Source: an uncultured Alphaproteobacteria bacterium
Lineage (GTDB): Bacteria > Pseudomonadota > Alphaproteobacteria > HIMB59 > GCA-002718135
Reading direction: 5' to 3'
Assembly: GCA_902561355.1 (NCBI GenBank)
Contig: CACEPG010000005.1
Location: 1 to 60,304, forward strand
DNA: 60,304 nt
Shown here: piece after piece, positions 22,033-50,046 of the stretch
Numbering within the stretch: position 1 is the stretch's first letter
How the letters are laid out: each line of letters opens with the position of its first letter
Translations under genes and position numbers: made by a program
The notes under the pieces: generated by a model
What the model was told of the DNA's origin: nothing
Seen by the model: only the letters and a program-made list of their open reading frames with translations
Databases searched by the model: none

Positions 22033-23049
22033 TTATATTTTGTGTACAGTTCCTCTTTCAATAATTATAGGTTTTGCTAAAAAAGATTGAGGTTTATAAT
22101 TTTTTTTATCCATATCAAGAAGCATATCCAGAGCTTTTAAACCCATCTCTTTTCTAGGATGTCTAACAGCGGTCAGGGCTGGACTAGTTAAAGTTTCAAC
22201 AACAGGTCCATCGAATGTAATTATTGAAATATCTTTTCCAATTGCTTTACCTAATTCTTTACAAGCCTTAATAGCTCCAACACCAGAATATTCTGTTGAG
22301 CATATTAAAGCTGTAATTTCTGGATTTTTTTTTAACATTTTTTTTATGAGACTGGCGCTTTGTTCAGGCTCTTCTGTTTTAACGGTTAAATAATATTTTT
22401 TGTTAAATTTTATTTTATTTTTTTTAAGAGATTTTATATATCCTTGCTGTCTTTGAAATGCAAAGTTGTAATTTTCAACAATATTAATATAACCAATATT
22501 TTTGTGATTTCTTTCAATTAAATATTTCATTATTAAATTAACACTACCTTCATTATCTAAATCTACCCAAGAATTATTTTTTAAATCTTTTGTTCTTCCC
22601 CAAGTAACAAATTTAATTTTATTTTTTTTTAGAATTTTTATTCTATAATCATTTGTTTTTAAATTATGTAAGATAATTTTATCTACTTTTTGAACATGTA
22701 TTAACTTTTCATAAGCTTTTATTTCTTCCTCAACATTATTAGCGAACATCATAAAAAATTGAATATCTTCTGAATGTATTTTACTATTCATACCTGCAAT
22801 AAATTCAAAAAAAGATGATTGATTTAAAAGATTTGAATTTAATCCATATAATGGAACTATAAATCCTACAGTTTTAGATTTTCCAGAAGCAAGTCTACTT
22901 GCATTTGGATTTGGGGAATAATTATATTTTTTTGCAAATTTCTCTACTCTTGTCCTTGTTTTATCACTAACATCTGAATAACCTCCAAGTGCTCTAGATA
23001 CAGTAGTAATAGATAACCCAAGTTTTCTTGACAAAGTTCTTATATCCAT
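22033..23049 (-). CDS. LacI-family transcriptional repressor of the sugar region
   Basis: A 338-aa LacI/GalR regulator. The helix-turn-helix is at the N-terminus (MDIRTLSRKLGLSITTVSRALGGYSDVS), with the hinge NPNASRLASGKSKTVGFIVP and a periplasmic-binding-protein-like effector domain containing FVTWGR, ICSTEYSGVGAIKACKELG and a C-terminal LTSPALTAVRHPRKEMG. It is divergent from the aglE-like gene. A perfect 16-bp palindrome lies between them and related ones lie at 30448 and 35828, so it probably represses the importers and itself. The inducer is likely an alpha-glucoside-like sugar, by analogy with AglR. Confidence 0.94.
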   Translation of the reverse strand: MDIRTLSRKLGLSITTVSRALGGYSDVSDKTRTRVEKFAKKYNYSPNPNASRLASGKSKTVGFIVPLYGLNSNLLNQSSFFEFIAGMNSKIHSEDIQFFMMFANNVEEEIKAYEKLIHVQKVDKIILHNLKTNDYRIKILKKNKIKFVTWGRTKDLKNNSWVDLDNEGSVNLIMKYLIERNHKNIGYINIVENYNFAFQRQQGYIKSLKKNKIKFNKKYYLTVKTEEPEQSASLIKKMLKKNPEITALICSTEYSGVGAIKACKELGKAIGKDISIITFDGPVVETLTSPALTAVRHPRKEMGLKALDMLLDMDKKNYKPQSFLAKPIIIERGTVHKI

Positions 23050-23097: not shown

Positions 23098-23126
23098 TTG
23101 ACAACCAAAACGTTTTGGTAAAAAAT
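23098..23126 (+). promoter_or_regulatory. aglE-like promoter with LacI operator in the spacer
   Basis: A consensus -35 hexamer TTGACA (23098-23103) is followed by the perfect palindrome ACCAAAACGTTTTGGT (23104-23119) and an A/T-rich -10 candidate (AAAAAT at 23121-23126, 17-bp spacer). The operator fills the spacer, the classical position for repression. GGAGG precedes the ATG at 23155. Confidence 0.85.
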
Positions 23127-23154: not shown

Positions 23155-24462
23155 ATGAATTATTTTACAAAAATTTTATTAGCTACCTTTTCCTCATTTG
23201 TAATTAGCTTTTCTGCTTTTGCAGGTGGACACTATACTGGTCCTGATTTATCTGGACAAAAAGTAGTTATGTTTGGTCCATGGTTGTCACCAGAGCAAGA
23301 AACAATGAGAGAAGTAGGTGCTATTTTTGAAAAAGCTACGGGAGCAACTTTTGAATATGGTGGATCTGATAGTTTTGAACAACAAGTAATGATTGATCTT
23401 AAAGCAGGTAGTGCTGCTGATTTAGTTGTGTTCCCTCAACCAGGTCTGGCAGCAAATGCTGCTGCAATGGGAGGGCTAGTACCGCTTGGAAATGATATAA
23501 AACAAATGGTATTGGATAATTATGCTGCTGGTCAATCATGGATTGATCTTTCAACATATGCAGATGAAAATGGCAATGATCAATTCAATGCTATTTTCTT
23601 CAGAACAAATGTAAAAAGCTTAGTATGGTATTCTCCAGACAACTTCGAAGATAATGGATATGAAGTTCCTGGATCTATGGAAGAACTAATTGCTCTTACA
23701 AGAAAAATGGCTTCAGATGGAAATACTCCATGGTGCATAGGTTTAGGTTCAGGTGCTGCAACAGGATGGCCTGCGACTGACTGGATGGAGGACATTATGC
23801 TTAGAACTCATTCGCCTGATGTTTATGACATGTGGGTTTCAAATGAAATGCCTTTTAATGATCCAAGAGTTTTAGAAGCAATGGATTTCTTTGGTTCATT
23901 TGCACTAAACGATAGCTTTGTTAATGGTGGATCTAAAGCAGTTGCTACAACTGATTTTAGAGACGCTCCTAATGGACTATTTACTTCTCCAGCTGAATGT
24001 ATGATGCATAGACAAGCAAGTTTCATTCCTGCATTCTTCCCAGAAGGTGTGGAAGCTGGTGTAGATTATGACTTCTTTTATTTTCCTGCTTACGCAACAA
24101 AAGATCTTGGAACTCCAGTTCTTGGAGCAGGAACTTTAGTAGCTGCAACTAATGATAATCCGGCTACTATAGAATTCATGAAGTTCTTAATGCATCCGGA
24201 ACCGCATGAATATTGGATGGCTAAAGGAGGCTTTTTAACTCCTCACAAAGGTGTTGATGGAAGCAAGTATGCTAGTGATACTTTTAGAAAACTTGGTGAA
24301 ATTCTAACAGGTGCTACAACTTTTAGATTTGATGCTTCTGATTTAATGCCTGGCGCTATTGGTGCTGGAAGTTTCTGGACAGGTATGGTTGACTATACCA
24401 ATGGAAAATCAGCTAAAGATGTAGCTGATGCGATCCAAGATAGTTGGGACGCAATTAAATAA
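23155..24462 (+). CDS. Sugar ABC transporter substrate-binding protein (AglE-like)
   Basis: A 435-aa CUT1 extracellular solute-binding protein with a signal peptide ending near AFAGGH (residues 20-25). The mature protein has the two-lobed pattern with WLSPEQETMREVGAIFEKATGA, YGGSDSFEQQVMIDLKAG, a Trp-rich binding region and LMHPEPHEYWMAKGGFLTPHKGV, closest to alpha-glucoside binding protein AglE. Base composition is more GC-rich than its neighbours, as usual for highly expressed binding proteins. A strong terminator follows, so it is probably made in excess over the permeases. Confidence 0.92.
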   Translation: MNYFTKILLATFSSFVISFSAFAGGHYTGPDLSGQKVVMFGPWLSPEQETMREVGAIFEKATGATFEYGGSDSFEQQVMIDLKAGSAADLVVFPQPGLAANAAAMGGLVPLGNDIKQMVLDNYAAGQSWIDLSTYADENGNDQFNAIFFRTNVKSLVWYSPDNFEDNGYEVPGSMEELIALTRKMASDGNTPWCIGLGSGAATGWPATDWMEDIMLRTHSPDVYDMWVSNEMPFNDPRVLEAMDFFGSFALNDSFVNGGSKAVATTDFRDAPNGLFTSPAECMMHRQASFIPAFFPEGVEAGVDYDFFYFPAYATKDLGTPVLGAGTLVAATNDNPATIEFMKFLMHPEPHEYWMAKGGFLTPHKGVDGSKYASDTFRKLGEILTGATTFRFDASDLMPGAIGAGSFWTGMVDYTNGKSAKDVADAIQDSWDAIK

Positions 24463-24476
24463 TAATACCTCCATAA

Positions 24477-24512
24477 ACAGGCGAACAATTTACTTGTTCG
24501 CCTGTTTTTTTT
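24477..24512 (+). terminator. Partial terminator between binding-protein and permease genes
   Basis: A perfect 12-bp stem, ACAGGCGAACAA/TTGTTCGCCTGT, with a 5-nt loop, followed by eight T. It lies 14 bp after the binding-protein stop and 17 bp before the first permease. It should stop most transcripts and leave some read-through. Confidence 0.92.
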
Positions 24513-24528
24513 ATATATTTACTTATTA

Positions 24529-25512
24529 ATGAGTGTCTTCAATTTAGTATCTATTGTTTTTTTAGGAATATTATTTTTTATATTATATTTCCATATTTCA
24601 AATTACATCTTAGATTTATATGATAATAGATCTTATAGAAGATTTAAATTTGAAAACTCTTTTAGAGTTGTAATTTTTATAGCGCCGGCATTTATTATTT
24701 TATTTATATTTATACTATACCCTGTTTTTGAAACAATAAGACTAAGTTTTTATGATAAATTTGGAAGAGAGTTTGTAGGATTATATAATTATAATTGGGC
24801 TATTAATGATCCTGAATTTAAAAGAAGTATTTTAAATAATTTAGGATGGCTATTAATTGTTCCAACATTGAGTACTTTTTTTGGCCTAGTTATAGCAAGT
24901 TTGTCAGATAGAGTTTGGTGGGGATCAATAGCAAAATCTATTATTTTTATGCCAATGGCAATTTCTTTCGTAGGCGCTGGTGTAATTTGGAAATTTATTT
25001 ATGAATATAGAGGACCGGGAGATACGCAAATTGGATTTTTGAATGCAATAATCGTGTCTTTTGGTTATGAGCCCCAGGCTTGGCTAACTATTCCAATTTG
25101 GAATAATGTATTTTTGATGACTATAATGATATGGATCCAAACTGGATTGGCATTAGTAATTTTTAGTGCAGCCCTTAGAGGTATTCCAAAAGAAATGCTG
25201 GAAGCAGCAAGAATAGATGGAGCAAGTGAATTAAAAATTTTTTTTTCTTTAGTTATACCTTACCTTGAGCAAACAATTTTAGTTATTTGGACAATTATAA
25301 CAATTCTTGTTTTAAAAATATTTGATATCATTTTTGCTATGACTAATGGAGAATGGCAGACAGGTGTATTAGCAAATTTAATGTATGATTGGATGTTTAG
25401 AGGAGGTGGTGACTCTGGTAGGGGTAGCGTATTAGCAATAGTCATAATGATAGGAGTTGTCCCTATTATGGCTTGGAATATCTATAAACATAGACAAGAA
25501 CAAAAAATATAA
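24529..25512 (+). CDS. Sugar ABC transporter permease (AglF/MalF-like)
   Basis: A 327-aa CUT1 permease. An N-terminal membrane segment (residues 5-27) precedes the standard six-helix core beginning at FRVVIFIAPAFIILF. The EAA loop that contacts the ATPase is EMLEAARIDGASELKIFFSLVIPYLEQ. It overlaps the next permease start by 1 bp (TAATG). With the AglE-like protein and the AglG-like permease it forms an alpha-glucoside-type importer; the ATPase gene is about 9 kb downstream. Confidence 0.92.
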   Translation: MSVFNLVSIVFLGILFFILYFHISNYILDLYDNRSYRRFKFENSFRVVIFIAPAFIILFIFILYPVFETIRLSFYDKFGREFVGLYNYNWAINDPEFKRSILNNLGWLLIVPTLSTFFGLVIASLSDRVWWGSIAKSIIFMPMAISFVGAGVIWKFIYEYRGPGDTQIGFLNAIIVSFGYEPQAWLTIPIWNNVFLMTIMIWIQTGLALVIFSAALRGIPKEMLEAARIDGASELKIFFSLVIPYLEQTILVIWTIITILVLKIFDIIFAMTNGEWQTGVLANLMYDWMFRGGGDSGRGSVLAIVIMIGVVPIMAWNIYKHRQEQKI

Positions 25513-26651
25513 TGAAAAAAATTTCTTATTCTTCAGTTCTGTCACAATTATTATTATTGTTATTTGTTATTATTTGGATAATTCCAACATTTGGTCTTTT
25601 TATAAGTTCTTTAAGAGACAAAGATCTATTAGCAATTAGTGGTTGGTGGACCTCTTTGACTACCACAAAAGTTAATGAGATTCATAGAATGTCAGGAATG
25701 GAGGAGCAAATTAAAGTTGAAGATTATTTTATTATTCAAGGTAAATTATTTGATGATAATTCTAAAAAAAAAATACAAACTTTTGGAATAACATCAAAGA
25801 AAATTAATGAATTTAATGTTGGTGAAACAGCAATTTTTAAAAACAAAAACGAAGTTACAGTAAAAGAGAATGGCGAATATATTTTAAAATCAAAAAAAGA
25901 GTTTACTAAAAAGAAAGGAAAAAGACTTTTTATTACAGCTTTGAGTCCTCCTGCTTTTACATTTGAAAATTATAAAGAAGTATTATTTAAAGAAGGTATT
26001 GGTCAAGCATTTATAAATACGGCAGCTGTAGCCTTGCCCTCAACTATCATTCCTCTAATTATTTGCTCTTTTTTTGCTTATTCTTTAACTTGGATGAAAT
26101 TTTTTGGAAGAGATACTTTGTTAGCAATAGTTATTGCCTCACTTGTTGTTCCTTTGCAAATGTCTCTTATACCAATACTCACAATTTATAATGACTTTGG
26201 AGCTTTATTTGGAGTTGCCGCTAAATCATATCCTGGAGTCTGGATGGCACATACAGGTTTTGGTCTTGCATCAACAACATTCTTATTAAGAAATTTTATA
26301 AAATCATTACCTAGTGAAATGATGGAAGCTGCTAAAGTTGATGGAGCTTCCCATTATGATATTTTTATAAGAATTATAGTGCCTTTATCGATACCTGCTT
26401 TTGCTTCAATTTTTATTTTGCAATTTCTCTGGTGTTGGAATGATTTATTAGTTGGTTTAGTTTTTTTAGATCAAGTGCCAAGTGAGATAATTTTGACTGC
26501 AAAATTAAAAGAATTACTTGGATCAAGGGGGGAGAATTGGGAAATTTTAACAACTGGAGCATTTGTTTCTATGTCTGTTCCTTTATTTATATTTTTTGCA
26601 CTTCAAAGGTATTTTATAAGGGGTTTAGTGGCAGGGTCTGTAAAAGGTTAA
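25512..26651 (+). CDS. Sugar ABC transporter permease (AglG-like) with large periplasmic insert
   Basis: A 379-aa CUT1 permease. Membrane segment 1 (about 10-33) is followed by a polar insert of about 110 residues (roughly 45-150) rich in Lys/Glu, then the remaining membrane core. The EAA loop is EMMEAAKVDGASHYDIFIRIIVPLSIP, and the C-terminus YFIRGLVAGSVKG is typical of MalG-type permeases. AglG of rhizobia shares the unusual length and insert, which supports the Agl assignment. Its start overlaps the stop of the previous permease. Confidence 0.92.
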   Translation: MKKISYSSVLSQLLLLLFVIIWIIPTFGLFISSLRDKDLLAISGWWTSLTTTKVNEIHRMSGMEEQIKVEDYFIIQGKLFDDNSKKKIQTFGITSKKINEFNVGETAIFKNKNEVTVKENGEYILKSKKEFTKKKGKRLFITALSPPAFTFENYKEVLFKEGIGQAFINTAAVALPSTIIPLIICSFFAYSLTWMKFFGRDTLLAIVIASLVVPLQMSLIPILTIYNDFGALFGVAAKSYPGVWMAHTGFGLASTTFLLRNFIKSLPSEMMEAAKVDGASHYDIFIRIIVPLSIPAFASIFILQFLWCWNDLLVGLVFLDQVPSEIILTAKLKELLGSRGENWEILTTGAFVSMSVPLFIFFALQRYFIRGLVAGSVKG

Positions 26652-26655
26652 AGAT

Positions 26656-26967
26656 CTAAATTATATTTATATAAACTTTCTCTTTTTCCAATTTTACTTG
26701 ATAAGTTTTTAGAGCTTTACATGGAGGATCCTGTATAACTACTCCTGTTTTTATATTGAAAATTCCTTGATGCATTGGACATTCTATTTCATCATCTGTT
26801 ACTAATCCATCTTCAAGATGGACTTCTTCGTGTGTACAGATGCCTTCAGTTGCAAAAAAACCATCTTTAATATGATATATACAAAAGGTTTGATCTTTAT
26901 AATCAAATCTTTTTAAATCTTCAAAATCAATATCACTTTTTTCACAAACATATATCCAGTTTTCCAT
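26656..26967 (-). CDS. Rieske [2Fe-2S] ferredoxin-like protein
   Basis: A 103-aa single-domain Rieske protein. Cluster ligands are Cys44-x-His46 (GICTHEEV) and Cys63-x2-His66 (ECPMHQG), the spacing of biphenyl/naphthalene-dioxygenase-type ferredoxins (about 105 aa). It probably carries electrons to an oxygenase. The nearest oxygenase-like gene is the divergent desaturase at 27062. It ends 4 bp from the convergent AglG-like gene. Confidence 0.92.
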   Translation of the reverse strand: MENWIYVCEKSDIDFEDLKRFDYKDQTFCIYHIKDGFFATEGICTHEEVHLEDGLVTDDEIECPMHQGIFNIKTGVVIQDPPCKALKTYQVKLEKEKVYINII

Positions 26968-27061
26968 AATTATTAAATATATTGAAATTGAAAAATTTAA
27001 AGAAATATTTATTTAATATAATAAGATAATAATTTATTATATTTATTAATAAATAAAATAT

Positions 27062-28075
27062 ATGGCTGAGCATATCAAAAATCAAACAGGTATAAATAAT
27101 ATTTCTAGTGAATGGTTTAAAGCCAAAATAGATAGAAAAAAATTAAAAGAACTTTCAAGAAGAAATGATTATGAAGGGTGGAAACATATCATAATTTTTA
27201 CTGCATCCTTAACTTTACTTGGAGCATTGTGCGTTTATTTCTGGGGATCTTTATGGTTTATTTTATTTTACTTGAGTTATTGTACCCTATGGGGAGGCGC
27301 TGATGCGATCTGGCATGAGTGCGGTCATCGTACAGCTTTTAAAACAAGAAAGTTAAATGATTTTTTTTATGTTATTGCAAGTTTCCTTAACAATTTTGAA
27401 CCAGTAAGATGGCGATGGAGTCATTCATTACACCATAGTTATACTGCTTCGATAGACCCTCATGACTTCGAAGTTGATGAAAGTATTTTTTCTAAATACA
27501 CTTTATTTAATTTCTTAATAAGATTTATTCCTGGTTATTATTTTTTAATTCTACATAAATCTCTTCATTTAGAAATCATTAAACACGCTATTGGAATTGA
27601 AACTAAAGTAATGAAAGAATGTATTCCACCCGAAAAAAAATCTAAATGTATATTAAGTTCAAGAATTTTTGTTTTTATATGGATATTAATAATTATTTTT
27701 TCAATAATCATTCAATCATTTTTACCAATCTTGCTTTTTTTAATTCCTAAATTTTTTATTTCATTAAATATAGTTTGGGGATTAACACAACATATGGGAT
27801 TAAAGGAAGGTACAAAAGATCACAGAGAATCAACTAGATCAGTTAGATTAAATCCTGTTTTTAGCTTTATCTACTGGAAAATGGAATATCATATAGAGCA
27901 CCATATGTTCCCTATGGTGCCATCATATAATCTTCCAAAATTATATGAATTAATTAAAGATCAATTACCTAAACCGCAAAGTTTATTTGAGGCTTATAAA
28001 GAGATTATACCTGCGGTAATAAAAAAATCAAAAAATCCAAATTACTATATTGAGGTAAAAATTCCTTCTAATTGA
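27062..28075 (+). CDS. Membrane fatty-acid desaturase / alkane hydroxylase-type di-iron protein
   Basis: A 337-aa integral-membrane di-iron protein. The three histidine boxes are HECGH (85-89), HSLHH (121-125) and HIEHH (near 281), with an extra TQHMG. Membrane pairs lie at about 43-80 and 210-245. This His pattern belongs to the desaturase/hydroxylase superfamily. Whether it desaturates lipids or hydroxylates a small molecule is open. The divergent Rieske ferredoxin could supply electrons; that pairing is inferred from position. Confidence 0.87.
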   Translation: MAEHIKNQTGINNISSEWFKAKIDRKKLKELSRRNDYEGWKHIIIFTASLTLLGALCVYFWGSLWFILFYLSYCTLWGGADAIWHECGHRTAFKTRKLNDFFYVIASFLNNFEPVRWRWSHSLHHSYTASIDPHDFEVDESIFSKYTLFNFLIRFIPGYYFLILHKSLHLEIIKHAIGIETKVMKECIPPEKKSKCILSSRIFVFIWILIIIFSIIIQSFLPILLFLIPKFFISLNIVWGLTQHMGLKEGTKDHRESTRSVRLNPVFSFIYWKMEYHIEHHMFPMVPSYNLPKLYELIKDQLPKPQSLFEAYKEIIPAVIKKSKNPNYYIEVKIPSN

Positions 28076-28169
28076 ATGTTTAACGAATATAATAAATGAT
28101 TGAATAATATTGACATAATACAAAGCTTTAGATTTATATAAAATATTATTAAGTTTTTTGGAGATTAAA

Positions 28170-29606
28170 ATGGAAGTTAGAAATTTTATTGGTGGCAATT
28201 TTGTTGACTCAATATCAAAGTCAAACATACCAGTAATTAATCCAGCTAATCAAAATGTTGTTGGACAAATAGACGAAGCTTTAGATGAAGAAATTGATCT
28301 GGCGTTATTAGCTGCAAAAAATTCATTTAATCAGAGAATACTTCAAGATATGGATGCTTCACTAAAATCAAAAAAAATGAGATCCATCGCTTCAAAATTA
28401 AGAGAGTATAAAAAAAGAGGAGGTATGATCTTAAGTCAAGAAAATGGGAAAACTATTGAACAATGCGAGGGAGAATTTGATGGAGCTGCAAATGTATTCG
28501 ATTATTATGCTGGCTTAACTGATAAAATTGAAAATAAACTTATACCTTCAGGAAATGATACCTTTAACTATATTGTTCTTGAGCCATTTGGTGTAAGTTT
28601 GCAAATAGTTCCTTGGAACTATCCAATAGCACTTTTTGCTAGATCAGTTGCTGTAAGTTTAGTTGTAGGAAATACTATAGTAATAAAACCTCCTGAGCTA
28701 TGCCCAATTTCATCAAATATTTTTGGAGAAATTTTTAATGAAGTGGAGCTACCAGATGGTGTTATAAATATAGTGCATGGATATGGAGAAGTTACAGGAA
28801 AAAAATTAGTTGATCATAATTCAATAGATCAAGTTGTTTTCACTGGTTCGCCTGAGGTTGCATCAGAAATTTTAAAGAGAACCGCTGACAGAATCATTCC
28901 ATGCCATCTTGAACTAGGTGGTAAATCTGCAGCTATAATTTATCCAGATGCAAATATTGATAATGCAGTAGATAGCACAATTAAAGGTATTTTTAAGCCT
29001 AACGCTGGCCAAATATGTGTAGCAATGTCTAGAGTGATTATACATCAAAAAATAAAAGATGAATACATTACAAAATTATTTGAAAAAACTAAAAAATTAA
29101 AGATTGGGGCAGGTAGTGATAATACTACAGAGGTTACTCCATTAATTTCAACTGAACAATTGCAAAGGGTTTCAAATTATTGTCAATCAGGAGTTCAATC
29201 TGGGGCAGAATTGATCATAGGTGGTGAAAAACATGATCAAGAAAATGGCAACTATTATAAACCAACTATATTTGATAATGTTGATCCAAAATCAACCATT
29301 GCCCAAGAAGAAATATTTGGTCCAGTTACAAGTATTTTTAATTTTGAAACAGAAGAAGAAGCTGTAGAAATAGCAAATTCCACAGACTATGGTCTTGCCT
29401 CGGGTGTTTTTACAAATAATGATGAGAAAGCTAAGTGGACCGCAGATAGAATTGAGGCTGGAATTGTTTGGCATAATGATTGGTTTGTTGATGGAGTTAA
29501 TTTGCCTGGAGGTGGTTATAAAAAATCAGGTTATGGTCGAGATGGAGGAATAGATAGTTTATATAGTTATGGACAAACAAAGCGTGTAAGTAAAAGAATA
29601 TATTAA
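28170..29606 (+). CDS. NAD(P)-dependent aldehyde dehydrogenase
   Basis: A 478-aa ALDH-superfamily enzyme. Seen: IVPWNYPIALFARS and NTIVIKPPELCP in the NAD fold, the general-base Glu in HLELGGKSAAII, and the catalytic Cys in NAGQICVAMSR. The ATG at 28170 is chosen because TTGGAG at 28158-28163 serves as its ribosome binding site; a TTG frame begins inside that site. It is followed 9 bp later by the PanB-like gene. The aldehyde substrate is unknown. Confidence 0.93.
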   Translation: MEVRNFIGGNFVDSISKSNIPVINPANQNVVGQIDEALDEEIDLALLAAKNSFNQRILQDMDASLKSKKMRSIASKLREYKKRGGMILSQENGKTIEQCEGEFDGAANVFDYYAGLTDKIENKLIPSGNDTFNYIVLEPFGVSLQIVPWNYPIALFARSVAVSLVVGNTIVIKPPELCPISSNIFGEIFNEVELPDGVINIVHGYGEVTGKKLVDHNSIDQVVFTGSPEVASEILKRTADRIIPCHLELGGKSAAIIYPDANIDNAVDSTIKGIFKPNAGQICVAMSRVIIHQKIKDEYITKLFEKTKKLKIGAGSDNTTEVTPLISTEQLQRVSNYCQSGVQSGAELIIGGEKHDQENGNYYKPTIFDNVDPKSTIAQEEIFGPVTSIFNFETEEEAVEIANSTDYGLASGVFTNNDEKAKWTADRIEAGIVWHNDWFVDGVNLPGGGYKKSGYGRDGGIDSLYSYGQTKRVSKRIY

Positions 29607-29615
29607 TAATTTATA

Positions 29616-30401
29616 ATGATAAAAAAATTAACAGTAAAAGAAATTCTTGAATGTAAAGGAAATAAAAAATTAACCGAAGTATATACTCATAACCCTTTAG
29701 AAGCTGAATCTTGTGAATTGGCTGAAGTTGAAATGATAGTATCTTCAGAAAACAATGATATTCAAGGTATTAGAAATGCAGCAAAAAATACTTTTTTAAC
29801 AGTGGGACTCCAATACGGAAAATATTTAACTGAGTTAGATATTTTGAATAGATGTTTTTATCTTTATGAAAATGGAGCTGACGCAATTTATTGCCCTCAA
29901 AGTTGTAAATTTATAAAAGCTATTTCTGATGAGGGAATTCCTGTTGTTGGTCACACAGGCTTTATACCTTACAAATCTACATTTTATGGAGGATTTAAAG
30001 CTTATGGCAAAATTTCTAGTGAGGCACAAAAAATTTTTGATGAAACTTTGAGAATTGAAGACGCAGGTGCTTTTGCTGCAGAAATTGAAATTGTTCCATT
30101 TAAAGTTGCAGAGTATATTTCAAATAAAGTTAAAATATTTATGATTGGTATGGGCAGTGGCCAAGGGTGCGATGCTCAATATTTATTTTCAGAAGATGTT
30201 CTTGGTTATAATAAAGGACACATCCCAAGACATGCAAAAGTTTATGCTAACTTATCTCAAGATTATGAAAATATTAAATCAAAATCAATAGATGCTTTTA
30301 AAAAGTTTAAAAAAGATGTAGTATCAAAACAATATCCATATAAACAGCACGATATTAATATTCTAGATGAAGAATATGAAAAATTTATAAAAAATCATTA
30401 A
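29616..30401 (+). CDS. PanB-fold protein lacking the metal ligands (not a true ketopantoate hydroxymethyltransferase)
   Basis: A 261-aa protein whose C-terminal half aligns with PanB: VGHTGFIP, GGFKAYGK, DAGAFAAEIEIVPFKVAEYI with the catalytic-Glu position kept, MIGMGSGQGCDAQYLFSEDVLG and HIPRHAKVYANL. In E. coli PanB the Mg2+ ligands lie in VGDSLG, LLADLPF and VKIEGG. The matching segments here read VSSENND, LTVGLQYG and IYCPQSC, so the three acidic ligands appear lost. A different reaction in the PEP-mutase/PanB superfamily is likely. It is co-directional with the aldehyde dehydrogenase 9 bp upstream. Confidence 0.75.
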   Translation: MIKKLTVKEILECKGNKKLTEVYTHNPLEAESCELAEVEMIVSSENNDIQGIRNAAKNTFLTVGLQYGKYLTELDILNRCFYLYENGADAIYCPQSCKFIKAISDEGIPVVGHTGFIPYKSTFYGGFKAYGKISSEAQKIFDETLRIEDAGAFAAEIEIVPFKVAEYISNKVKIFMIGMGSGQGCDAQYLFSEDVLGYNKGHIPRHAKVYANLSQDYENIKSKSIDAFKKFKKDVVSKQYPYKQHDINILDEEYEKFIKNH

Positions 30402-30447
30402 TTTTATTCTATATTATCTTTATATTTTATAATATTTGATTTGACTT

Positions 30448-30461
30448 CCAAAACGCTTTGG
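30448..30461. promoter_or_regulatory. LacI-type operator upstream of the frcB-like gene
   Basis: CCAAAACGCTTTGG differs from the perfect palindrome at 23105-23118 by one base. A TATAAT at 30428-30433 upstream would place the operator just past the transcription start, where it could block elongation or promoter clearance. The gene start codon is 45 bp further on. Confidence 0.75.
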
Positions 30462-30505
30462 CTTTTACTGCTTTTATATTTGATTTAATTTATTTAGGAG
30501 GAAAA

Positions 30506-31501
30506 ATGAAATATAGAAATTTTATAATAACGATATTATTCCTATTACCTTTGTCGTCTTTCACATATGCAGCTCCAACTGGACAAGACCTAGGTGACAA
30601 TTGGTGCTCAGATGTAAAAATGCATTTTTATGCAGGAGGACCTGAAGCTGGTGGATTTGCTGGTATTGTTGCTGCAGGTGCGATGAACGCAATTAGAGAT
30701 ACTGGCGCAGATGCTGAGATTATCTATTCTGAATGGGATTTTGAAAAAATGGTTCGTCAGCTTAGAGAGTCTGTAGGCTTAGGTGTAGATGCTATTGCAA
30801 TGATGGGTCATCCGGGTAATGACGCTTTGATGCCACTTGCTAAACAAGCTGCAGAAAAAGGTATATTAATGACATATCAAAATGTAGACCCAGCTGGAGT
30901 ACGTGCAAAGTATGGGGGTGGCTATGTTGGTGCTAATTTAGCTACACAGGGTAAAGCACTTGCAAGAGAAGCTATTAGACAATATGGATTCAAAGCTGGT
31001 GATCATGCAATTGTTATGGTTCCGCTTGGTGACTATGCAAGAGCTCAAAGAGAAGATGGTGCAAGAATTATTTTTGAAGAACATGGTATGACTGTAACTG
31101 TTGTAGATGGAGACCCAAAATATGCATCTGACCCTAATATGTCTATTCCAATTTTTTCTGCAGCACTTGCGGCTAATCCAGATACAAAAGTAATAGTTCA
31201 TTCTGGAAGTGATATAATGAACGTTGCTGAAGGAATTGCAAAAGCTTCTGGCTATGGTCCAAATGAGCTGCTACAAATTGGTTTCGATACTAGTCCACAA
31301 ATCATGTCAGCTTTTGAAAAAGGTTATGTTCATCTAACTTCAGACCAACAACCTTTCTTACAAGGTTATTTACCTGTACTTTCTTTATGTCAAACTGCTG
31401 TATTAGGTACTGGAGCTATAAATCAAGATACTGGAGCTGGCTTTGTAGATACAAACAATTACCAAGCTGTTAAAGCTCTTGCAGACGCAGGTTTAAGATA
31501 G
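30506..31501 (+). CDS. CUT2-type sugar-binding protein (FrcB/RbsB-like)
   Basis: A 331-aa periplasmic binding protein with a signal peptide (MKYRNFIITILFLLPLSSFTYA). The type I fold has MHFYAGGPEAGGFAGIVAAG, GVDAIAMMGHPGNDALMPLAKQAAEKG and IQIGFDTSP-like segments as in ribose/fructose binding proteins. The ATG at 30506 is chosen because a strong AGGAGG lies at 30496-30501; a TTG frame to 30458 would start inside the operator. The ribosome binding site has 12 bases complementary to the candidate small RNA at 35857. Confidence 0.92.
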   Translation: MKYRNFIITILFLLPLSSFTYAAPTGQDLGDNWCSDVKMHFYAGGPEAGGFAGIVAAGAMNAIRDTGADAEIIYSEWDFEKMVRQLRESVGLGVDAIAMMGHPGNDALMPLAKQAAEKGILMTYQNVDPAGVRAKYGGGYVGANLATQGKALAREAIRQYGFKAGDHAIVMVPLGDYARAQREDGARIIFEEHGMTVTVVDGDPKYASDPNMSIPIFSAALAANPDTKVIVHSGSDIMNVAEGIAKASGYGPNELLQIGFDTSPQIMSAFEKGYVHLTSDQQPFLQGYLPVLSLCQTAVLGTGAINQDTGAGFVDTNNYQAVKALADAGLR

Positions 31502-31515
31502 TAATTTAAATATAT

Positions 31516-31547
31516 AAACTGACCCATTAAATATGGGTCAGTTTTAC
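31516..31547 (+). terminator. Hairpin between binding-protein and ATPase genes
   Basis: A perfect 12-bp stem, AAACTGACCCAT/ATGGGTCAGTTT, with the 5-nt loop TAAAT, starts 15 bp after the stop codon. The T run is short, so it may be a weak terminator or an mRNA-stabilising hairpin that raises binding-protein output. Confidence 0.8.
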
Positions 31548-31560
31548 CTAAATTTAACTT

Positions 31561-32307
31561 ATGGAAAAAATAATCGAATTGAAAAATGTAACCAAGAGAT
31601 TTGGTGGTATAACAGCACTAAATAAAGCTTCATTATATGTTGAGCAAGGTGAAGTTGTAGGTTTAATTGGTGATAATGGTGCTGGCAAATCTACATTAAT
31701 TAAAACTCTTGTTGGGGTTTATGGTCCTGATGAAGGAGAAATAATAATAAGAGGTAATAAAGTTTTAAATTGGACAGCATTAAAAGCACGGGAGTCAGGG
31801 ATTGAAACAGTTTTTCAAGATAGGGCTTTATGTCCGCAACAATCAATAGTTTGGAATATCTTTATGGGGAAAGAATTAACATACCCTTTTGGCTTTGTTA
31901 GAGAAAAAGAACAAATTAGTGAAGCAAATAGATTAATTAGAGAAATAGGTTTTACATCAAAATTAATTGATGCTGAGTCACCTGTAGGAAACTTATCTGG
32001 TGGAGAGAGACAAGGTGTTGCTATAGCAAGAGCAATATATAATAATGCAGAATTAATTATACTTGATGAACCTACAAATGCTTTATCACTTAATGAAACT
32101 CAAAAAGTTTTTGAATTTGTAAATAATGTCAAAAAATCTAATAGATCTGTTTTATTCATAGGTCATAATATTTATCATGTTTATGATATTTCTGATCGAT
32201 TTGTAATCTTAGACCGTGGTGAAGTTGTTCACCAACTTAATAAAGAAGAAGTTAAAACACCTGAAGAATTAATGAAAATAATGCGTGATACAATTAAAAA
32301 ACATTAG
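31561..32307 (+). CDS. Sugar ABC transporter ATPase, single-domain CUT2 type (FrcA-like)
   Basis: A 248-aa ABC ATPase. Walker A GDNGAGKST (37-45), signature NLSGGERQGVAIARA, Walker B LIILDEPTNALS, and the switch His in FIGHNIYHVYD. It has one ATPase domain, unlike the fused double domain of RbsA/XylG, which matches FrcA of Sinorhizobium fructose import. It starts after the hairpin downstream of the binding protein and is followed 8 bp later by the permease. Confidence 0.92.
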   Translation: MEKIIELKNVTKRFGGITALNKASLYVEQGEVVGLIGDNGAGKSTLIKTLVGVYGPDEGEIIIRGNKVLNWTALKARESGIETVFQDRALCPQQSIVWNIFMGKELTYPFGFVREKEQISEANRLIREIGFTSKLIDAESPVGNLSGGERQGVAIARAIYNNAELIILDEPTNALSLNETQKVFEFVNNVKKSNRSVLFIGHNIYHVYDISDRFVILDRGEVVHQLNKEEVKTPEELMKIMRDTIKKH

Positions 32308-32315
32308 AGAGAATT

Positions 32316-33290
32316 ATGAATAAAGAAAAATCAATTGTAGGAAATATTTTTCATAAAAATGGAAGAGCTTTAGGAAGTATGGGGTATTTTATATTATTGA
32401 TGTTAGTATTTCTTATTGGGGCACCAGAAGCATGGATGAGACCAAGCTTGCATCAATCTGTTTTTGTAATGCTGCCAACACTTATATTTTTGGTAATTCC
32501 ATTAGTTTTTTTAGTTGCTTCAGGAGAAATTGATTTATCTTTTGCCTCAACTTATGCAGTTGCTGCATATGTTTTTGCTATAATGGTAAAGTCAGGCATA
32601 GATCCTGCTATTGCTATTCTAGCTGGTATTTTAACCGGCGCTATTATTGGAGCATTAGTTGGTGCTTTGATAGTTGTCTTTAGACTATCATCTTTAGTTG
32701 CTTCATTAGGTATGCTGTTTCTTTTGAGGGGTGTAATTTTATTGTTAACTGAAAGTCGTTCAATTACGATTATGGAAATTGACAATCATTGGACTTACTC
32801 TGCTCTTGTTGGAAATTTTTATGGATTTCCAATGCAAATTTTTTGGGCTTCTTTATTTGTAATTTATTGTTATTATTTATTTAGCAAGCATGTTTTTGGA
32901 ATTCATATACATCATGTTGGTGATAATTCTGTAAGTGCTGAACAAATGGGAATTAATGTTAAGGCAGTGAAAATAAAAGCTTTTATGTTTGTTGGAATTG
33001 GAGCAGCTATAGGAGGTATCTTTACTACCTTGATTACTTATACTTTTTTTCCAACACAAGGTTTTGGATACTTATTATTAGCTCTTGCAGCTGTTTTTGT
33101 GGGGGGTACTCCTTATTGGGGTGGATTAGGTACAATTATTGGAGCTATATTTGGTGTAGGAATTATAGCTTATATGGAAATTGGAATTATAGCTATTGGA
33201 TGGAGTGGTACTTGGAGACAATTTTTTAATGGGTTAATTATTTTGTTAGCACTTTTAGGTCATAGATTGCATGGAGAAAGGGTTAGATAA
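32316..33290 (+). CDS. Sugar ABC transporter permease, CUT2 type (FrcC/RbsC-like)
   Basis: A 324-aa permease with about 8-10 membrane segments. The conserved LVASGEIDLSFASTYAVAAYVFAIMV and GALIVVFRLSSLVASLGMLFLLRGV are RbsC/BPD_transp_2 motifs, and FVGIGAAIGGIFTTL plus AVFVGGTPYWGGLGTIIGAIFG follow. It forms the channel of the FrcBAC-like importer. The GH4 glycosidase gene begins 1 bp after its stop, so import and glycoside cleavage are likely co-expressed. Confidence 0.93.
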   Translation: MNKEKSIVGNIFHKNGRALGSMGYFILLMLVFLIGAPEAWMRPSLHQSVFVMLPTLIFLVIPLVFLVASGEIDLSFASTYAVAAYVFAIMVKSGIDPAIAILAGILTGAIIGALVGALIVVFRLSSLVASLGMLFLLRGVILLLTESRSITIMEIDNHWTYSALVGNFYGFPMQIFWASLFVIYCYYLFSKHVFGIHIHHVGDNSVSAEQMGINVKAVKIKAFMFVGIGAAIGGIFTTLITYTFFPTQGFGYLLLALAAVFVGGTPYWGGLGTIIGAIFGVGIIAYMEIGIIAIGWSGTWRQFFNGLIILLALLGHRLHGERVR

Positions 33291-33291
33291 A

Positions 33292-34599
33292 ATGAACAAA
33301 ATTGTTTTAATTGGTGCTGGAAGCGTTAATTTTGGCTTAGGAACTTTAGGGGATATTTTTAAATCAAAAATTCTTGAGGGCTCAACTATAACTCTGCATG
33401 ATATCAATCCTAAAACTTTAGAAAATACAAAAAATATTGCATTAAAATACAAAGAAAAACTTAAGTTAAATTTTAAAATTGAGGCAACAGTTAATAGAGA
33501 AGAAGCGCTTAAAGATGCAACTTATTGTATAATATCCATAGAAATTGGAAGTCGTTTCGATTTATGGGATCAAGATTGGAAAATCCCTTTACAATATGGT
33601 TTCAAACAAATTTATGGAGAGAATGGTGGTCCGGGAGGTTTATTTCATTCATTAAGAATAGCTCCTGTCATATTAAATATTTGTGAAGATATAATAAAAT
33701 ATTGTCCTAATGCCTTTGTATTTAATTATTCGAATCCAATGCAAAGAATCTGCCATGCTGTTACAACAAAATTTCCAGATTTAAAATTTGTTGGTCTTTG
33801 TCATGAGATAGCATCTATGGAGAGACAACTACCAACTATAATGGAAACTGATTTTTCAAATATTGAAATTAAGGCTGGTGGATTAAACCACTTAAGTATT
33901 TTACTTGAAGTAAAATATAAAGATTCACAAAAAGATGGTTATCCAAAAATACATGAAAAGTTTGAAAGCTATTATTCTAAATTAACAAGTGAATACTATC
34001 CTTCTAGCCCAGGAGGTGAGAGAGGTGTTTTTTTTCAATTATATAAACTTTATGGATACCTTCCAATTACAACAGATAGTCATTTAGGTGAATATATTCA
34101 ATGGGCATATAGTGTTGCTGATCATGAGGCTATCATGGAATTCTATGACAATTACAAAAAGAGATGCTTAACTTTCTATGATAAGGAATCTCACTACGCA
34201 GAATATTTTGCAACGAATAATAAAATAAACGAGAGAATAGTTCCGATTATGGAAGCAATTATTGAAGATACAAATTTTGAAGAATCTGCTGTTAATGTAC
34301 CAAACAAAAATTTTATTGAGTGTCTTCCAGAAAATATTGTTGTAGAAGTGCCTGGTATTTTAAATAAATCAGGAGTAAAAGGAGTGAAGCTTGAAAATTA
34401 TCCTTCCAATTTTGGCAGCTTACTAAATAATCAAGTAAGCACTATACAACTTACAACCGATGCAGTAATAAATAAATCAAAGGATAGTGCATATCAAGCT
34501 TTATTAGCTGATCCAGTTGTTGATAATGTTAAATCTGCCCAAAAATTGTTAGACACAATGTTAGTTTTTCAAAAAGAATATCTTGGATATCTAAAATAG
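33292..34599 (+). CDS. Glycoside hydrolase family 4 (alpha-glucosidase/galactosidase-like, NAD-dependent)
   Basis: A 435-aa GH4 enzyme. The N-terminal NAD-binding motif is KIVLIGAGSVNFG (residues 3-15). The metal-binding Cys170-His171 (VGLCHE) and His200 (GGLNHLS) are placed as Cys174 and His203 in Thermotoga AglA. NYSNPMQR is also conserved. GH4 enzymes cleave glycosides by a redox-elimination mechanism needing NAD+ and Mn2+. The ATG at 33292 is preferred to one at 33271 inside the permease gene. Substrate is probably an alpha-glycoside taken up by a neighbouring importer. Confidence 0.92.
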   Translation: MNKIVLIGAGSVNFGLGTLGDIFKSKILEGSTITLHDINPKTLENTKNIALKYKEKLKLNFKIEATVNREEALKDATYCIISIEIGSRFDLWDQDWKIPLQYGFKQIYGENGGPGGLFHSLRIAPVILNICEDIIKYCPNAFVFNYSNPMQRICHAVTTKFPDLKFVGLCHEIASMERQLPTIMETDFSNIEIKAGGLNHLSILLEVKYKDSQKDGYPKIHEKFESYYSKLTSEYYPSSPGGERGVFFQLYKLYGYLPITTDSHLGEYIQWAYSVADHEAIMEFYDNYKKRCLTFYDKESHYAEYFATNNKINERIVPIMEAIIEDTNFEESAVNVPNKNFIECLPENIVVEVPGILNKSGVKGVKLENYPSNFGSLLNNQVSTIQLTTDAVINKSKDSAYQALLADPVVDNVKSAQKLLDTMLVFQKEYLGYLK

Positions 34600-34673
34600 T
34601 TGTTGAATATAAATTAATTATCACTTAAAAAAAATATTATTAACACTTGAAAGATCGCTCAAAGGAGGATGAA

Positions 34674-35753
34674 GTGGCAGATATAAATATAAATACAGTA
34701 AATAAGTATTACGGTGACGTTCACGTTATTAAAGACGTATCTTTAGATATAAAAAGTCAATCTTTTACAGTTCTTGTTGGGCCATCAGGTTGTGGTAAAT
34801 CAACAATGCTACGTATGATTGCTGGTTTAGAAGATATTAATTCTGGAACTATCTCAATTGATGGGCAGGTAGTTAATGATCTTCCTCCTAAGCAAAGAAA
34901 CATTGCAATGGTTTTCCAATCATATGCATTATACCCTCATATGACTGTTTTCGATAATATGGCTTTTGGTTTAAAATTAGAAAAAAGATCTAAGGATGAA
35001 ATTAATGAAAGAGTTCAAGAAGCCGCGCGCATACTTCAAATTGAAGATTATCTATTAAGAAAACCAAAACAACTTTCTGGAGGTCAAAGACAAAGAGTTG
35101 CGATTGGAAGAGCAATCACACGTAAACCAAAAGTTTTTTTATTTGATGAACCGCTATCTAATCTTGATGCAGCATTACGTGTGCAGATGAGAGTTGAATT
35201 AGCCAAATTACATGATCAATTAAATGCAACAATGATATATGTTACTCATGATCAAACAGAAGCGATGACATTAGCAAATGATATTGTAGTATTAGATGAA
35301 GGGATAGTTTCACAAAAAGGTACGCCTATGGAACTTTATAACAAACCAAATAATTTATTTGTAGGAGGTTTTATTGGTTCGCCAAAAATGAATTTTATTT
35401 CGTCAAAAATATTAAGTAAAAGTCATAATTCTACTGAAATTGAGCTTTTAGATAATGCAAAAATAAATATACATAAAACATCTGTTTCAGCTAATGAAGG
35501 TGATTCTGTAAAGCTGGGGATTCGTCCTGAGCATTTGTTAGTTAATGAAGATGCAGATGCATCATGGGAAAGCAAAGTTTTTGTTGTTGAAAAACTTGGT
35601 TCAGGTACTTTTTTATACTTAGAAAAAGAAGGAGAGCCATTAGTTGTTGAAACAGAAGGCGATACAAATATAAAAGTTGGAGATACAATAAAGGTTGGTT
35701 TTACCGCTTCACGTTGCCATATATTTGGTAAGAATAATAAGGCATTTGGATAA
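34674..35753 (+). CDS. CUT1 sugar ABC transporter ATPase (AglK/UgpC/MalK-like)
   Basis: A 359-aa ATPase. Walker A GPSGCGKST (about 36-44), Q-loop FQSYALYPHMTV, signature LSGGQRQRVAIGRA, Walker B VFLFDEPLSNLD, switch THDQTEAM, and a C-terminal TOBE/regulatory domain (GIRPEHLLV). The GTG at 34674 is the likely start: AGGAGG lies at 34663-34668, whereas the longer TTG frame begins upstream of it. This is the only CUT1-type ATPase in the window, while two CUT1 permease sets (24529-26651 and 50047-52619) lack one, so it may energise both. Confidence 0.93.
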   Translation: MADININTVNKYYGDVHVIKDVSLDIKSQSFTVLVGPSGCGKSTMLRMIAGLEDINSGTISIDGQVVNDLPPKQRNIAMVFQSYALYPHMTVFDNMAFGLKLEKRSKDEINERVQEAARILQIEDYLLRKPKQLSGGQRQRVAIGRAITRKPKVFLFDEPLSNLDAALRVQMRVELAKLHDQLNATMIYVTHDQTEAMTLANDIVVLDEGIVSQKGTPMELYNKPNNLFVGGFIGSPKMNFISSKILSKSHNSTEIELLDNAKINIHKTSVSANEGDSVKLGIRPEHLLVNEDADASWESKVFVVEKLGSGTFLYLEKEGEPLVVETEGDTNIKVGDTIKVGFTASRCHIFGKNNKAFG

Positions 35754-35822
35754 ATCTATCAGAATCGTTATTTAAACTTAATACTAATATTTGTTATATT
35801 TAATGGATTCTTATCTATATTA

Positions 35823-35850
35823 TTGTTCCAAAACGTTTTAGTTATATAAA
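35823..35850 (+). promoter_or_regulatory. LacI-operator promoter for the candidate small RNA
   Basis: TTGTTC (35823-35828) and TATAAA (35845-35850) form a -35/-10 pair with a 16-bp spacer. The palindrome CCAAAACGTTTTAG (35828-35841; one base off the perfect site at 23105) fills the spacer. Transcription would start near 35857, just where the RNA stem begins. Confidence 0.75.
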
Positions 35851-35856
35851 TTACTG

Positions 35857-35937
35857 GAGCAGAGTGTTTCATATTATTTCCTCCTAAAAGAGATATTCCT
35901 CTTGTAAACTTCTCTGCTCTTTATTTAAAATTTTTTT
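35857..35937 (+). ncRNA. Candidate sRNA with anti-Shine-Dalgarno segment
   Basis: GAGCAGAG (35857-35864) pairs with CTCTGCTC (35912-35919). Inside, GTTT (35866-35869) pairs with AAAC (35906-35909), and AAGAG/CTCTT (35888-35892/35899-35903) forms a second hairpin. TTTCCTCCTAAA (35877-35888) is left mostly unpaired. A T-rich run follows to 35937, suggesting termination. The exposed segment is perfectly complementary over 12 nt to 30493-30504, the frcB-like ribosome binding site, and over 10 nt to the site of the binding protein at 49974. AbcR sRNAs of Rhizobiales act on ABC-transporter mRNAs in a similar way. It could instead be an attenuator leader of the gene at 36008. Confidence 0.6.
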
Positions 35938-48762: not shown

Positions 48763-49974
48763 TTACTTATATTCTTCCAATTCTTCAGCTGCTTCGGCAA
48801 CTAAATCTGCTGCATCTCCTTCTCCAAGTATTGCTCCTTGGATCATTGAGTTCATAACAGCTTGGAAAGCTTTGTAATCAACAAACAATGGCTCTGGCCC
48901 ACCATCACCAATTGCATCAATAAACATCATCCAGTAATCTTCATTGTATGGTGCTACTGTTCCAATTTGTGGATACTGCATTATTGGAGTTAATCCCCAG
49001 TCAGTATCTAAACTATATTGAGAGTCACCAGATGAAATTATACTAGCTAATTCCATTGCATGATCTTCAACACCAGTATTATTAAATACTGCAATACTAT
49101 CTGTGATTAATAGAGTACCTTGGCTTCCTTGCGGTCCAGCAGGAATTCTAACCGTCTTAACGTTTAAACCTTCCTTATGTTGGCCTCTACCCCATGGTCC
49201 GTTAATGTACATTGCAATTTTTTCATCATTGAAAAGTTCAGTAAGCTGAGATCTCTCCCATGCTAATGGACCTTCCTGAGATACATTGGCAAGTTTTCCA
49301 TAAAAAGCTAAAGTCTCAACTGTGTTTGATGAATCAAGAGTAATTGCGTTAGTCATTGGATCAATAACTTGTCCACCATTACTATAAAGATAGTTTAAGA
49401 ACTGGTGCATAGTATTATCAAAATCTTTACCTGCTAAACCAATTCCTGCAACACCATTCACATTATTTGTAACAGCTTCAGCCATTGAATATAAATCATC
49501 CCATGTTTTAGGGCCTTCACAAGCAACACCTGCTTGCTCTAGTAAACCACAATTCATGAAAAGAGCTTTAGTTGAAAACGCGTGAGGGAAACCCCAAGTT
49601 TTGCCCATATGCGTAACTGTATTCAAAATACCTGGTTGATACATTGCTTGTTGAGAAGCTGGAATGTTTGTTTCTAGAATGTGTCCATTCTCTGCAAGAC
49701 CTTTTAAAGTTCTTGAACCTACATAAGAAAATGCAACTGGATCTCCTGCAATTGCAAGATTTATTACTTTATCCTGACAAGTACCCCAAGGAACTGCCTC
49801 TAATGTTACATTAACGCCAGGATTATTTTTCATATACTCATCAGCTATTTCTACGTAATTAGGTCTAAGATCACTACCACAAAAAACCCCATGCACATCA
49901 GCTGCAAAAGATTTAAAACCAGTAAGTGAAAATATTGAAATTATAAGAAATGAAGATAGTTTTTTTAAATTCAT
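48763..49974 (-). CDS. Sugar ABC transporter substrate-binding protein (CUT1, amino-sugar cluster)
   Basis: A 403-aa binding protein with signal peptide (MNLKKLSSFLIISIFSLTGFKSFAADV). It has MKNNPGVNVTLEAVPWGTCQDKVINLAIAGDP and MYINGPWGRGQHKEGL, usual for CUT1 proteins. An acidic C-terminal helix (residues 388-403) ends the protein. GGAGGAAAT precedes the ATG and can pair over 10 nt with the candidate sRNA at 35857. The ligand is probably a GlcNAc- or GalNAc-containing disaccharide because of the GH20, NagA and deaminase genes around it. Confidence 0.92.
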   Translation of the reverse strand: MNLKKLSSFLIISIFSLTGFKSFAADVHGVFCGSDLRPNYVEIADEYMKNNPGVNVTLEAVPWGTCQDKVINLAIAGDPVAFSYVGSRTLKGLAENGHILETNIPASQQAMYQPGILNTVTHMGKTWGFPHAFSTKALFMNCGLLEQAGVACEGPKTWDDLYSMAEAVTNNVNGVAGIGLAGKDFDNTMHQFLNYLYSNGGQVIDPMTNAITLDSSNTVETLAFYGKLANVSQEGPLAWERSQLTELFNDEKIAMYINGPWGRGQHKEGLNVKTVRIPAGPQGSQGTLLITDSIAVFNNTGVEDHAMELASIISSGDSQYSLDTDWGLTPIMQYPQIGTVAPYNEDYWMMFIDAIGDGGPEPLFVDYKAFQAVMNSMIQGAILGEGDAADLVAEAAEELEEYK

Positions 49975-50046
49975 ATTTCCTCCGTTATTTATAAAACACT
50001 TAACATTAAGTAGTAATATGGATCAAGGTTGTTTTACTGCTTAAGG

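Follow-up and report, generated by a model that had tools for sequence, protein, structure and literature searches.

Some small RNAs (sRNAs) derive from mRNA 3' ends; their genes terminate a metabolic operon, while the genes that they regulate lie elsewhere. In Alphaproteobacteria, AbcR1 and AbcR2 (the alpha-r15 family of Sinorhizobium, Agrobacterium, and Brucella) target mainly the periplasmic components of ABC importers (PMC8844928). The two validated targets of Sinorhizobium NfeR1 are likewise genes for periplasmic binding proteins (PMC8844928). SisA-D (alpha-R8) are four nutrient-linked siblings from Caulobacter that were recovered with Hfq by RIL-seq, and a TonB-dependent receptor was studied as their representative target (PMC12559287). 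Streamlined ocean heterotrophs rank their nutrients with few regulators.

The window, which is the whole 60,304-nt stretch of DNA analyzed here, has at 35857-35937 what appears, from its sequence, to be a discrete and conserved sRNA gene with its own -10 box, encoding a candidate transcript (Table 1). The gene stands at the end of a cluster of alpha-glucoside (agl) import genes. Compared with sRNAs from mRNA 3' ends, it differs in having a -10 box of its own that is conserved, plus its own operator in one lineage. The sRNA is most likely AbcR-like in logic but unrelated to AbcR; its seed, architecture, and genomic place are different, and its background is Hfq negative. AbcR and the new sRNA both have an anti-SD seed in a hairpin loop, a second anti-SD segment (a possible one here), and a home in the Alphaproteobacteria (PMC8844928). 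The predicted targets here are biased to the ribosome-binding sites (RBSs) of binding proteins (SBPs), with 8 of the top 10, and more weakly so in a second genome, G110. However, AbcR sRNAs are 114 to 121 nt long, while the sRNA here has a ~63-nt core closed on itself; their seeds are CUCCUCCC/UUCCCCUC (PMC8844928), while those here are UUUCCUCCU and AUUCCUCUU. AbcR genes lie in tandem beside lsrB under LsrB/RpoH1 control, whereas a single copy with LacI as its likely regulator ends a sugar operon here. AbcR also acts in an Hfq network, whereas Hfq (PF17209) was found in none of 45 family genomes, namely, the window's own and 44 others with a completeness of 80% or more (90% or more in ten of these). 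The control search recovered Hfq in Caulobacter and E. coli, and a search of the same 45 genomes for ProQ was negative too, with positive controls. Finally, Rfam 15 offered no family for the region at gathering or permissive thresholds, AbcR not necessarily being among its models, and the sole match at an E value of ≤5 was a chance SAM-SAH hit. The AbcR-like logic proposed in the first-pass annotation is supported, as is a bias of the complementarity to SBP start sites, though no Hfq was found.

SisA-D share the stretch UUUCCUCC of their single-stranded UUUCCUCCCU with the new sRNA, are likewise nutrient linked, and have one copy downstream of a metabolic gene (PMC12559287). The alpha-R8 segment is 10 nt of single-stranded UUUCCUCCCU, whereas the segment here is UUUCCUCCUA, invariant to UUUCCUCCU, with 8 nt shared. 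Also, alpha-R8 RNAs consist of a weak 5' hairpin, an open stretch, and a separate Rho-independent terminator, whereas here the closing stem P1 encloses the seed. NfeR1 resembles the sRNA in its redundant anti-SD motifs and, going by the predicted targets here, in its periplasmic binding protein targets but differs in being 115 nt long and stress induced, with three identical motifs (PMC8844928).

Table 1. Features of the sRNA locus and of its predicted regulon in the window
Feature	Position	Strand	Basis or remark
lacI gene, likely regulator	22033-23049	-	Pfam LacI and Peripla_BP_3; operator in divergent gap
LacI operator CCAAAACGTTTTGG, lacI/aglE-like gap	23105-23118		Same site at aglE in five relatives
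aglE-like sugar-binding protein gene	23155-24462	+	SBP_bac_1; permeases then to 26651
LacI operator CCAAAACGCTTTGG, upstream of frcB-like gene	30448-30461		Operator scan
Predicted target: RBS and start of frcB-like gene	30493-30508	+	12-nt complement; no. 6 in duplex list; cofolding rank 229
aglK/malK-type ABC ATPase gene, conserved upstream neighbor	34674-35753	+	Pfam
Weak -35 box TTGTTC	35823-35828	+	Read directly; 16-bp spacer to TATAAA
LacI-type operator CCAAAACGTTTTAG, overlapping the sRNA promoter	35828-35841		Read directly; operator scan
-10 box TATAAA	35845-35850	+	Read directly; position conserved upstream in relatives
sRNA gene: structured core (35857-35919) and T-rich 3' end	35857-35937	+	Covariance model, covariation, fold z score
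P1 stem, 5' arm	35857-35866	+	Partner 35910-35919
Closing-stem arms GAGCAGAG/CTCTGCTC	35857-35864/35912-35919	+	Read directly
Inner hairpin TATTTC/GAGATA, CUCCUAAAA in loop	35875-35895	+	RNAalifold, covariation
Anti-SD segment 1, TTTCCTCCT (AUUAUUUCCUCCU in most members)	35877-35885	+	TTTCCTCCT invariant
Open stretch TTTCCTCCTAAA	35877-35888	+	Read directly
Possible second anti-SD segment, ATTCCTCTT	35895-35903	+	TTCCTC kept in nearly all members
T-rich run 3' of core	35920-35937	+	Read directly
Predicted target: RBS and start of amino-sugar SBP gene	49972-49983	-	10-nt complement; duplex rank 20; cofolding rank 234

Promoter, fold, and conservation of the sRNA

The promoter with its 16-bp spacer, the LacI-type operator, the closing stem, the open anti-SD stretch, and the T-rich run described in the first-pass annotation are all present as placed. 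By themselves, the promoter hexamers are no better than chance, and scans for promoter and terminator consensus sequences were uninformative. Comparison with relatives says more about the -10 box: in 44 distinct upstream regions it is conserved at -12, where the best match averages 5.16 of 6 positions versus 4.40 ± 0.11 in shuffles, 7 standard deviations above. Folding gives the 81-nt RNA -17.2 kcal/mol (z = -3.7), and none of 200 shuffles was equally stable.

A covariance model, R1, built from 18 sequences, matches the core in the window with an E value of 4e-16. With it, the sRNA was found as a single copy per genome in 82 of the 102 genomes of the genus, including all six of those at least 90% complete. 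Beyond the genus, genomes of g5, g6, and g7 hold single, strong copies, and g3 has a weak one. The sister family, f2, gave no match, and among 289 genomes from throughout the class, strong matches were restricted to this one family. BLAST of the region against 61 related genomes likewise showed the core to be present across most of the genus. Where the sRNA is absent, this is consistent with gaps in the sequence: the contig with aglK is cut in G028, and no close aglK orthologue occurs in G111, G112, or G127. Phage records did not match the region. In an exact scan, a 19-mer matched marine Alphaproteobacteria of this clade, mostly single-cell genomes, while bacterial genomes outside the clade yielded many ordinary RBSs on the other strand, mostly in Firmicutes. 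Within the searches made, the sRNA family appears restricted to a single family in one order of Alphaproteobacteria, probably AEGEAN-169/HIMB59. The HIMB59 order comprises the families HIMB59 and GCA-002718135 (PMC10734472), and the AEGEAN-169 clade has alpha-glucoside and fructose importers (PMC10308909). We found no earlier description of this sRNA family, and the window copy serves as its founding example.

The covariation search that the first-pass annotation had proposed bears the structure out. Of the cells that the 16 pairs make up in 25 distinct sequences, 97.2% are paired, and five of the pairs have changed on both sides (from GAGC/GCTC to GGGC/GCCC and, in L267, GGTAG/CTACC). None of 500 shuffles reached as high a covariation score, and structures slid along the alignment drop to about half paired; this result is somewhat favored by the fitting of the alignment to the model. 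In P1, 4 of 10 pairs have changed on both sides. The inner stem is paired in 98% of cells, with one pair changed on both sides and three on one side. The inner hairpin of the first-pass annotation is one of two alternatives, and covariation favors the other: TATTTC/GAAGTA in relatives becomes TATTTC/GAGATA in the window, with CUCC left in the loop. Within the seed, TTTCCTCCT is identical in all 25 distinct strong members, whereas the CAU on its 5' side varies, and divergent members lose this CAU, which would pair with AUG. By analogy with AbcR, ATTCCTCTT is possibly a second anti-SD segment. The transcribed strand is plus, because the G-U pairs in the stems would be A-C on the other strand, and the conserved -10 box points the same way.

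Genomic place and LacI operators

Every locus that was read upstream of the sRNA has ~100 nt between aglK and the sRNA. The gene order in five genomes, with 15 to 40 kb read, runs from lacI through the divergent aglE-aglF-aglG, in some cases additional genes (e.g., GH4), and aglK to the sRNA. The other flank varies, with a convergent glpD in most genomes, a HAD hydrolase in g5 to g7, and a GpsA-like gene in the window. In the window (23155-35753), the agl cluster is broken by desaturase, dehydrogenase, and frc genes, while it is compact in G022 or G034; the inserted frc operon has a LacI operator of its own.

At the sRNA promoter lies a LacI-type palindrome with a CG center, a predicted binding site common to the other genes of the regulon, and the lacI gene is present. 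Allowing at most one mismatch, the operator occurs exactly three times in the 1.24-Mb genome of the window, at lacI/aglE, frcB, and the sRNA promoter, whereas 14 permuted versions of its arms do not occur at all. It precedes aglE as CCAAAACGTTTTGG in all five genomes read (G001, G034, G029, G022, and G110). Sequence in the window lineage supports the LacI control that had been proposed for the sRNA. The frcB-like gene, which the first-pass annotation took to serve another sugar, is instead a coregulated gene, since the same LacI operator stands upstream of it.

The operator at the sRNA promoter, also present in L138, L152, L164, and L262 to L264, is not family-wide. In most members of the genus the sRNA has no operator, only its place at the operon end, and none was present at the sRNA in the main-group genomes read (G022, G029, and G110). 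In that group, coupling to the operon would come by position or by another signal. The interruption of the agl cluster in the window may fit a need for a separate sRNA operator; nevertheless, two relatives with compact clusters (G001 and G034) have an operator at the sRNA as well.

Predicted targets

The two complementary sites of the first-pass annotation are exact: 30493-30504 (TTTAGGAGGAAA) is complementary to the open segment over 12 nt, and 49974-49983 (TATTTCCTCC), at a minus-strand gene, over 10 nt. The excess length of these matches had been offered as the evidence. However, complementary runs of at least 12 nt occur in 7 (0.6%) and of at least 10 nt in 24 (2.0%) of 1,189 start regions, and seeds with shuffled flanks give 1.4 (maximum, 7) and 13.8 ± 12 (maximum, 61) starts, respectively. 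The match lengths are within this chance range and unexceptional alone, and we rejected the pair as decisive evidence. The real evidence is of other kinds: conservation, covariation, the set of operators, and the type of gene that is matched.

For the last of these, duplexes of a 25-nt seed with the 1,189 predicted starts of the window's own 1.24-Mb genome were ranked. Eight of the best 10 duplexes fall at genes for Pfam-confirmed binding proteins (OpuAC, two Peripla_BP_4, of which one is frcB, two SBP_bac_3, SBP_bac_1, SBP_bac_8, and DctP), and the best predicted targets would serve the uptake of amino acids, betaine, dicarboxylates, and sugars. Compared with these 8 of 10 SBPs, the ten best sites of flank-shuffled seeds include 3.5 ± 1.5 secreted-like proteins, and the 9-nt anti-SD core by itself gave 6 of 10 of the top sites. 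GGAGG occurs at 15% of secreted-like genes versus 3% of other genes, and any strong anti-SD sequence finds SBPs because SBPs have the strongest RBSs. In G110 (800 kb), the extended seed gave 4 of 10 versus 2.7 ± 1.4 for shuffled flanks, with no clear extra SBP bias; in the same genome, GGAGGAAA is found at 4 of 94 secreted-like starts and at none of 713 other starts. The SBP excess among predicted targets is clear in the window's genome, weaker in the second genome, and in part a matter of the strong RBSs of such genes. The genome-wide prediction suggested in the first-pass annotation thus supports an SBP bias at home, but the bias of the extended seed was not reproduced in G110.

Cofolding with the whole sRNA, in which loop-loop contacts are not representable, made only 4 of 10 of the top sites secreted-like; AapJ-like, OpuAC, and SBP_bac_3 genes took ranks 2 to 4. 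Among relatives, 21 loci were chosen for a near-exact match to the seed at a place other than the sRNA, and in all 21 the best site is the RBS and start codon of a gene that resembles an SBP in sequence, on the complementary strand, though most belong to just two sets of orthologues, those of the DppA/OppA-like and the OpuAC gene, and so are not independent. Such sites also arise without the sRNA, since in the sister family, which has none, 7 of 52 genomes contain the exact 15-nt target.

These data leave some room, at well under even chances, for a conserved sRNA with a narrow role, acting on one or two targets (the DppA/OppA-like or the glycine-betaine SBP) or as a brake on its own regulon, with the SBP bias a product of strong RBSs. 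Outside the sRNA, a main-group genome typically has one exact 15-mer complement, which in the cases examined lies at a DppA/OppA-like SBP, and the OpuAC gene has a one-mismatch version in the window group. Moreover, the anti-SD core alone accounts for much of the SBP bias, and frcB and the sRNA have a common operator. A role this narrow is harder to square with best sites in the own genome that belong, in 8 of 10 cases, to SBPs of different families, above what flank-shuffled seeds find.

Proposed circuit

On balance, we favor a trans-acting sRNA that ends a LacI-controlled alpha-glucoside cluster, blocks the mRNAs of other importers, and so sets up a local nutrient hierarchy. By sequence, P1 closes around the inner hairpin, which presents the anti-SD CUCC in its loop. 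Once sugar had released LacI, the agl cluster would be expressed jointly with the sRNA, which would then pair via UUUCCUCCU and, where possible, via the adjacent AUAUUA and CAU, with RBSs and start codons in the mRNAs of amino-acid, glycine-betaine, oligopeptide, TRAP, and other sugar binding proteins, blocking their translation. The resulting local nutrient hierarchy would operate without Hfq or ProQ, and on the coregulated frcB the sRNA would act as an incoherent feed-forward brake. The hierarchy of sugars through an RNA put forward in the first-pass annotation is right in outline, but its key example, frcB, belongs to the same LacI regulon.

A wider reading, which we hold only tentatively, is that, in a streamlined and abundant ocean family without Hfq or ProQ, a sugar operon has its own arm of catabolite repression, a self-closing sRNA that could silence many importers together through its loop and is coupled to the operon by position and, in one lineage with a rearranged operon, by its own copy of the LacI operator. 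If true, uptake of one sugar would turn down uptake of other nutrients, and AbcR-like regulation would exist in a lineage without the usual RNA chaperones. An operon-linked, conserved sRNA with an importer-biased seed in Hfq- and ProQ-negative genomes makes the question of nutrient ranking testable.

Other readings of the locus

That the structure is a cis element of the aglK transcript, namely, a terminator or mRNA-protecting 3' end, shared in most relatives with the convergent glpD, is improbable. It would account for the constant distance of ~100 nt from aglK and for an inverted repeat of ~30 bp (z = -4.7) that, in most members of the genus (e.g., L279:1624-1755), is made up of the 3' half of the sRNA and the region of the glpD 3' end; this repeat may form as an alternative to the closed P1 fold. 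Nevertheless, the downstream arm of the repeat is absent from the window lineage and from L008, and neither a terminator nor a protective hairpin needs an invariant TTTCCTCCT loop or a conserved -10 box just upstream of the stem. Also, two sister-family aglK orthologues that were examined (84% and 72% identical) have no such element, and on this ground an element of the aglK 3' untranslated region only is disfavored.

A leader or riboswitch of the downstream GpsA-like gene at 36008 is very improbable: the two lie on the same strand in the window and in L271, with 89 nt from the end of the core to the gene, but nearly all relatives have the convergent glpD or the HAD hydrolase there, and, given that this neighbor is not conserved and that Rfam has no match, we rejected it. 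Least credible of all is a short peptide on the opposite strand, for which the reverse complement TAGGAGGAAATAATATGAAA would supply a strong RBS and an ATG in the window and most relatives but for which neither start nor frame is conserved (frame and length vary with TTTCAT versus TTCAT, and L267, L269, and L272 have no ATG), while the G-U pairs fit the plus strand only; it was rejected too.

Three further features of the neighborhood were noted. First, a GANTC-type motif (AGAATCG or CGATTCG) stands directly 3' of the aglK stop codon in nearly all relatives, ~80 to 105 nt before the sRNA; in the window it is at 35761-35767, with the same place in L002 to L020, and it reads CGATTCG in L262 to L264. 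Second, in the sister family (L326 and L040; G038), an aglK gene 84% identical to that of the window has no sRNA behind it, and the aglK of G038 lies ~1 kb from an SBP gene bearing an exact seed complement. Third, the amino-sugar ABC operon of the window includes tandem, near-identical permease genes of 279 amino acids each at 50047-50886 and 50888-51727 on the minus strand.
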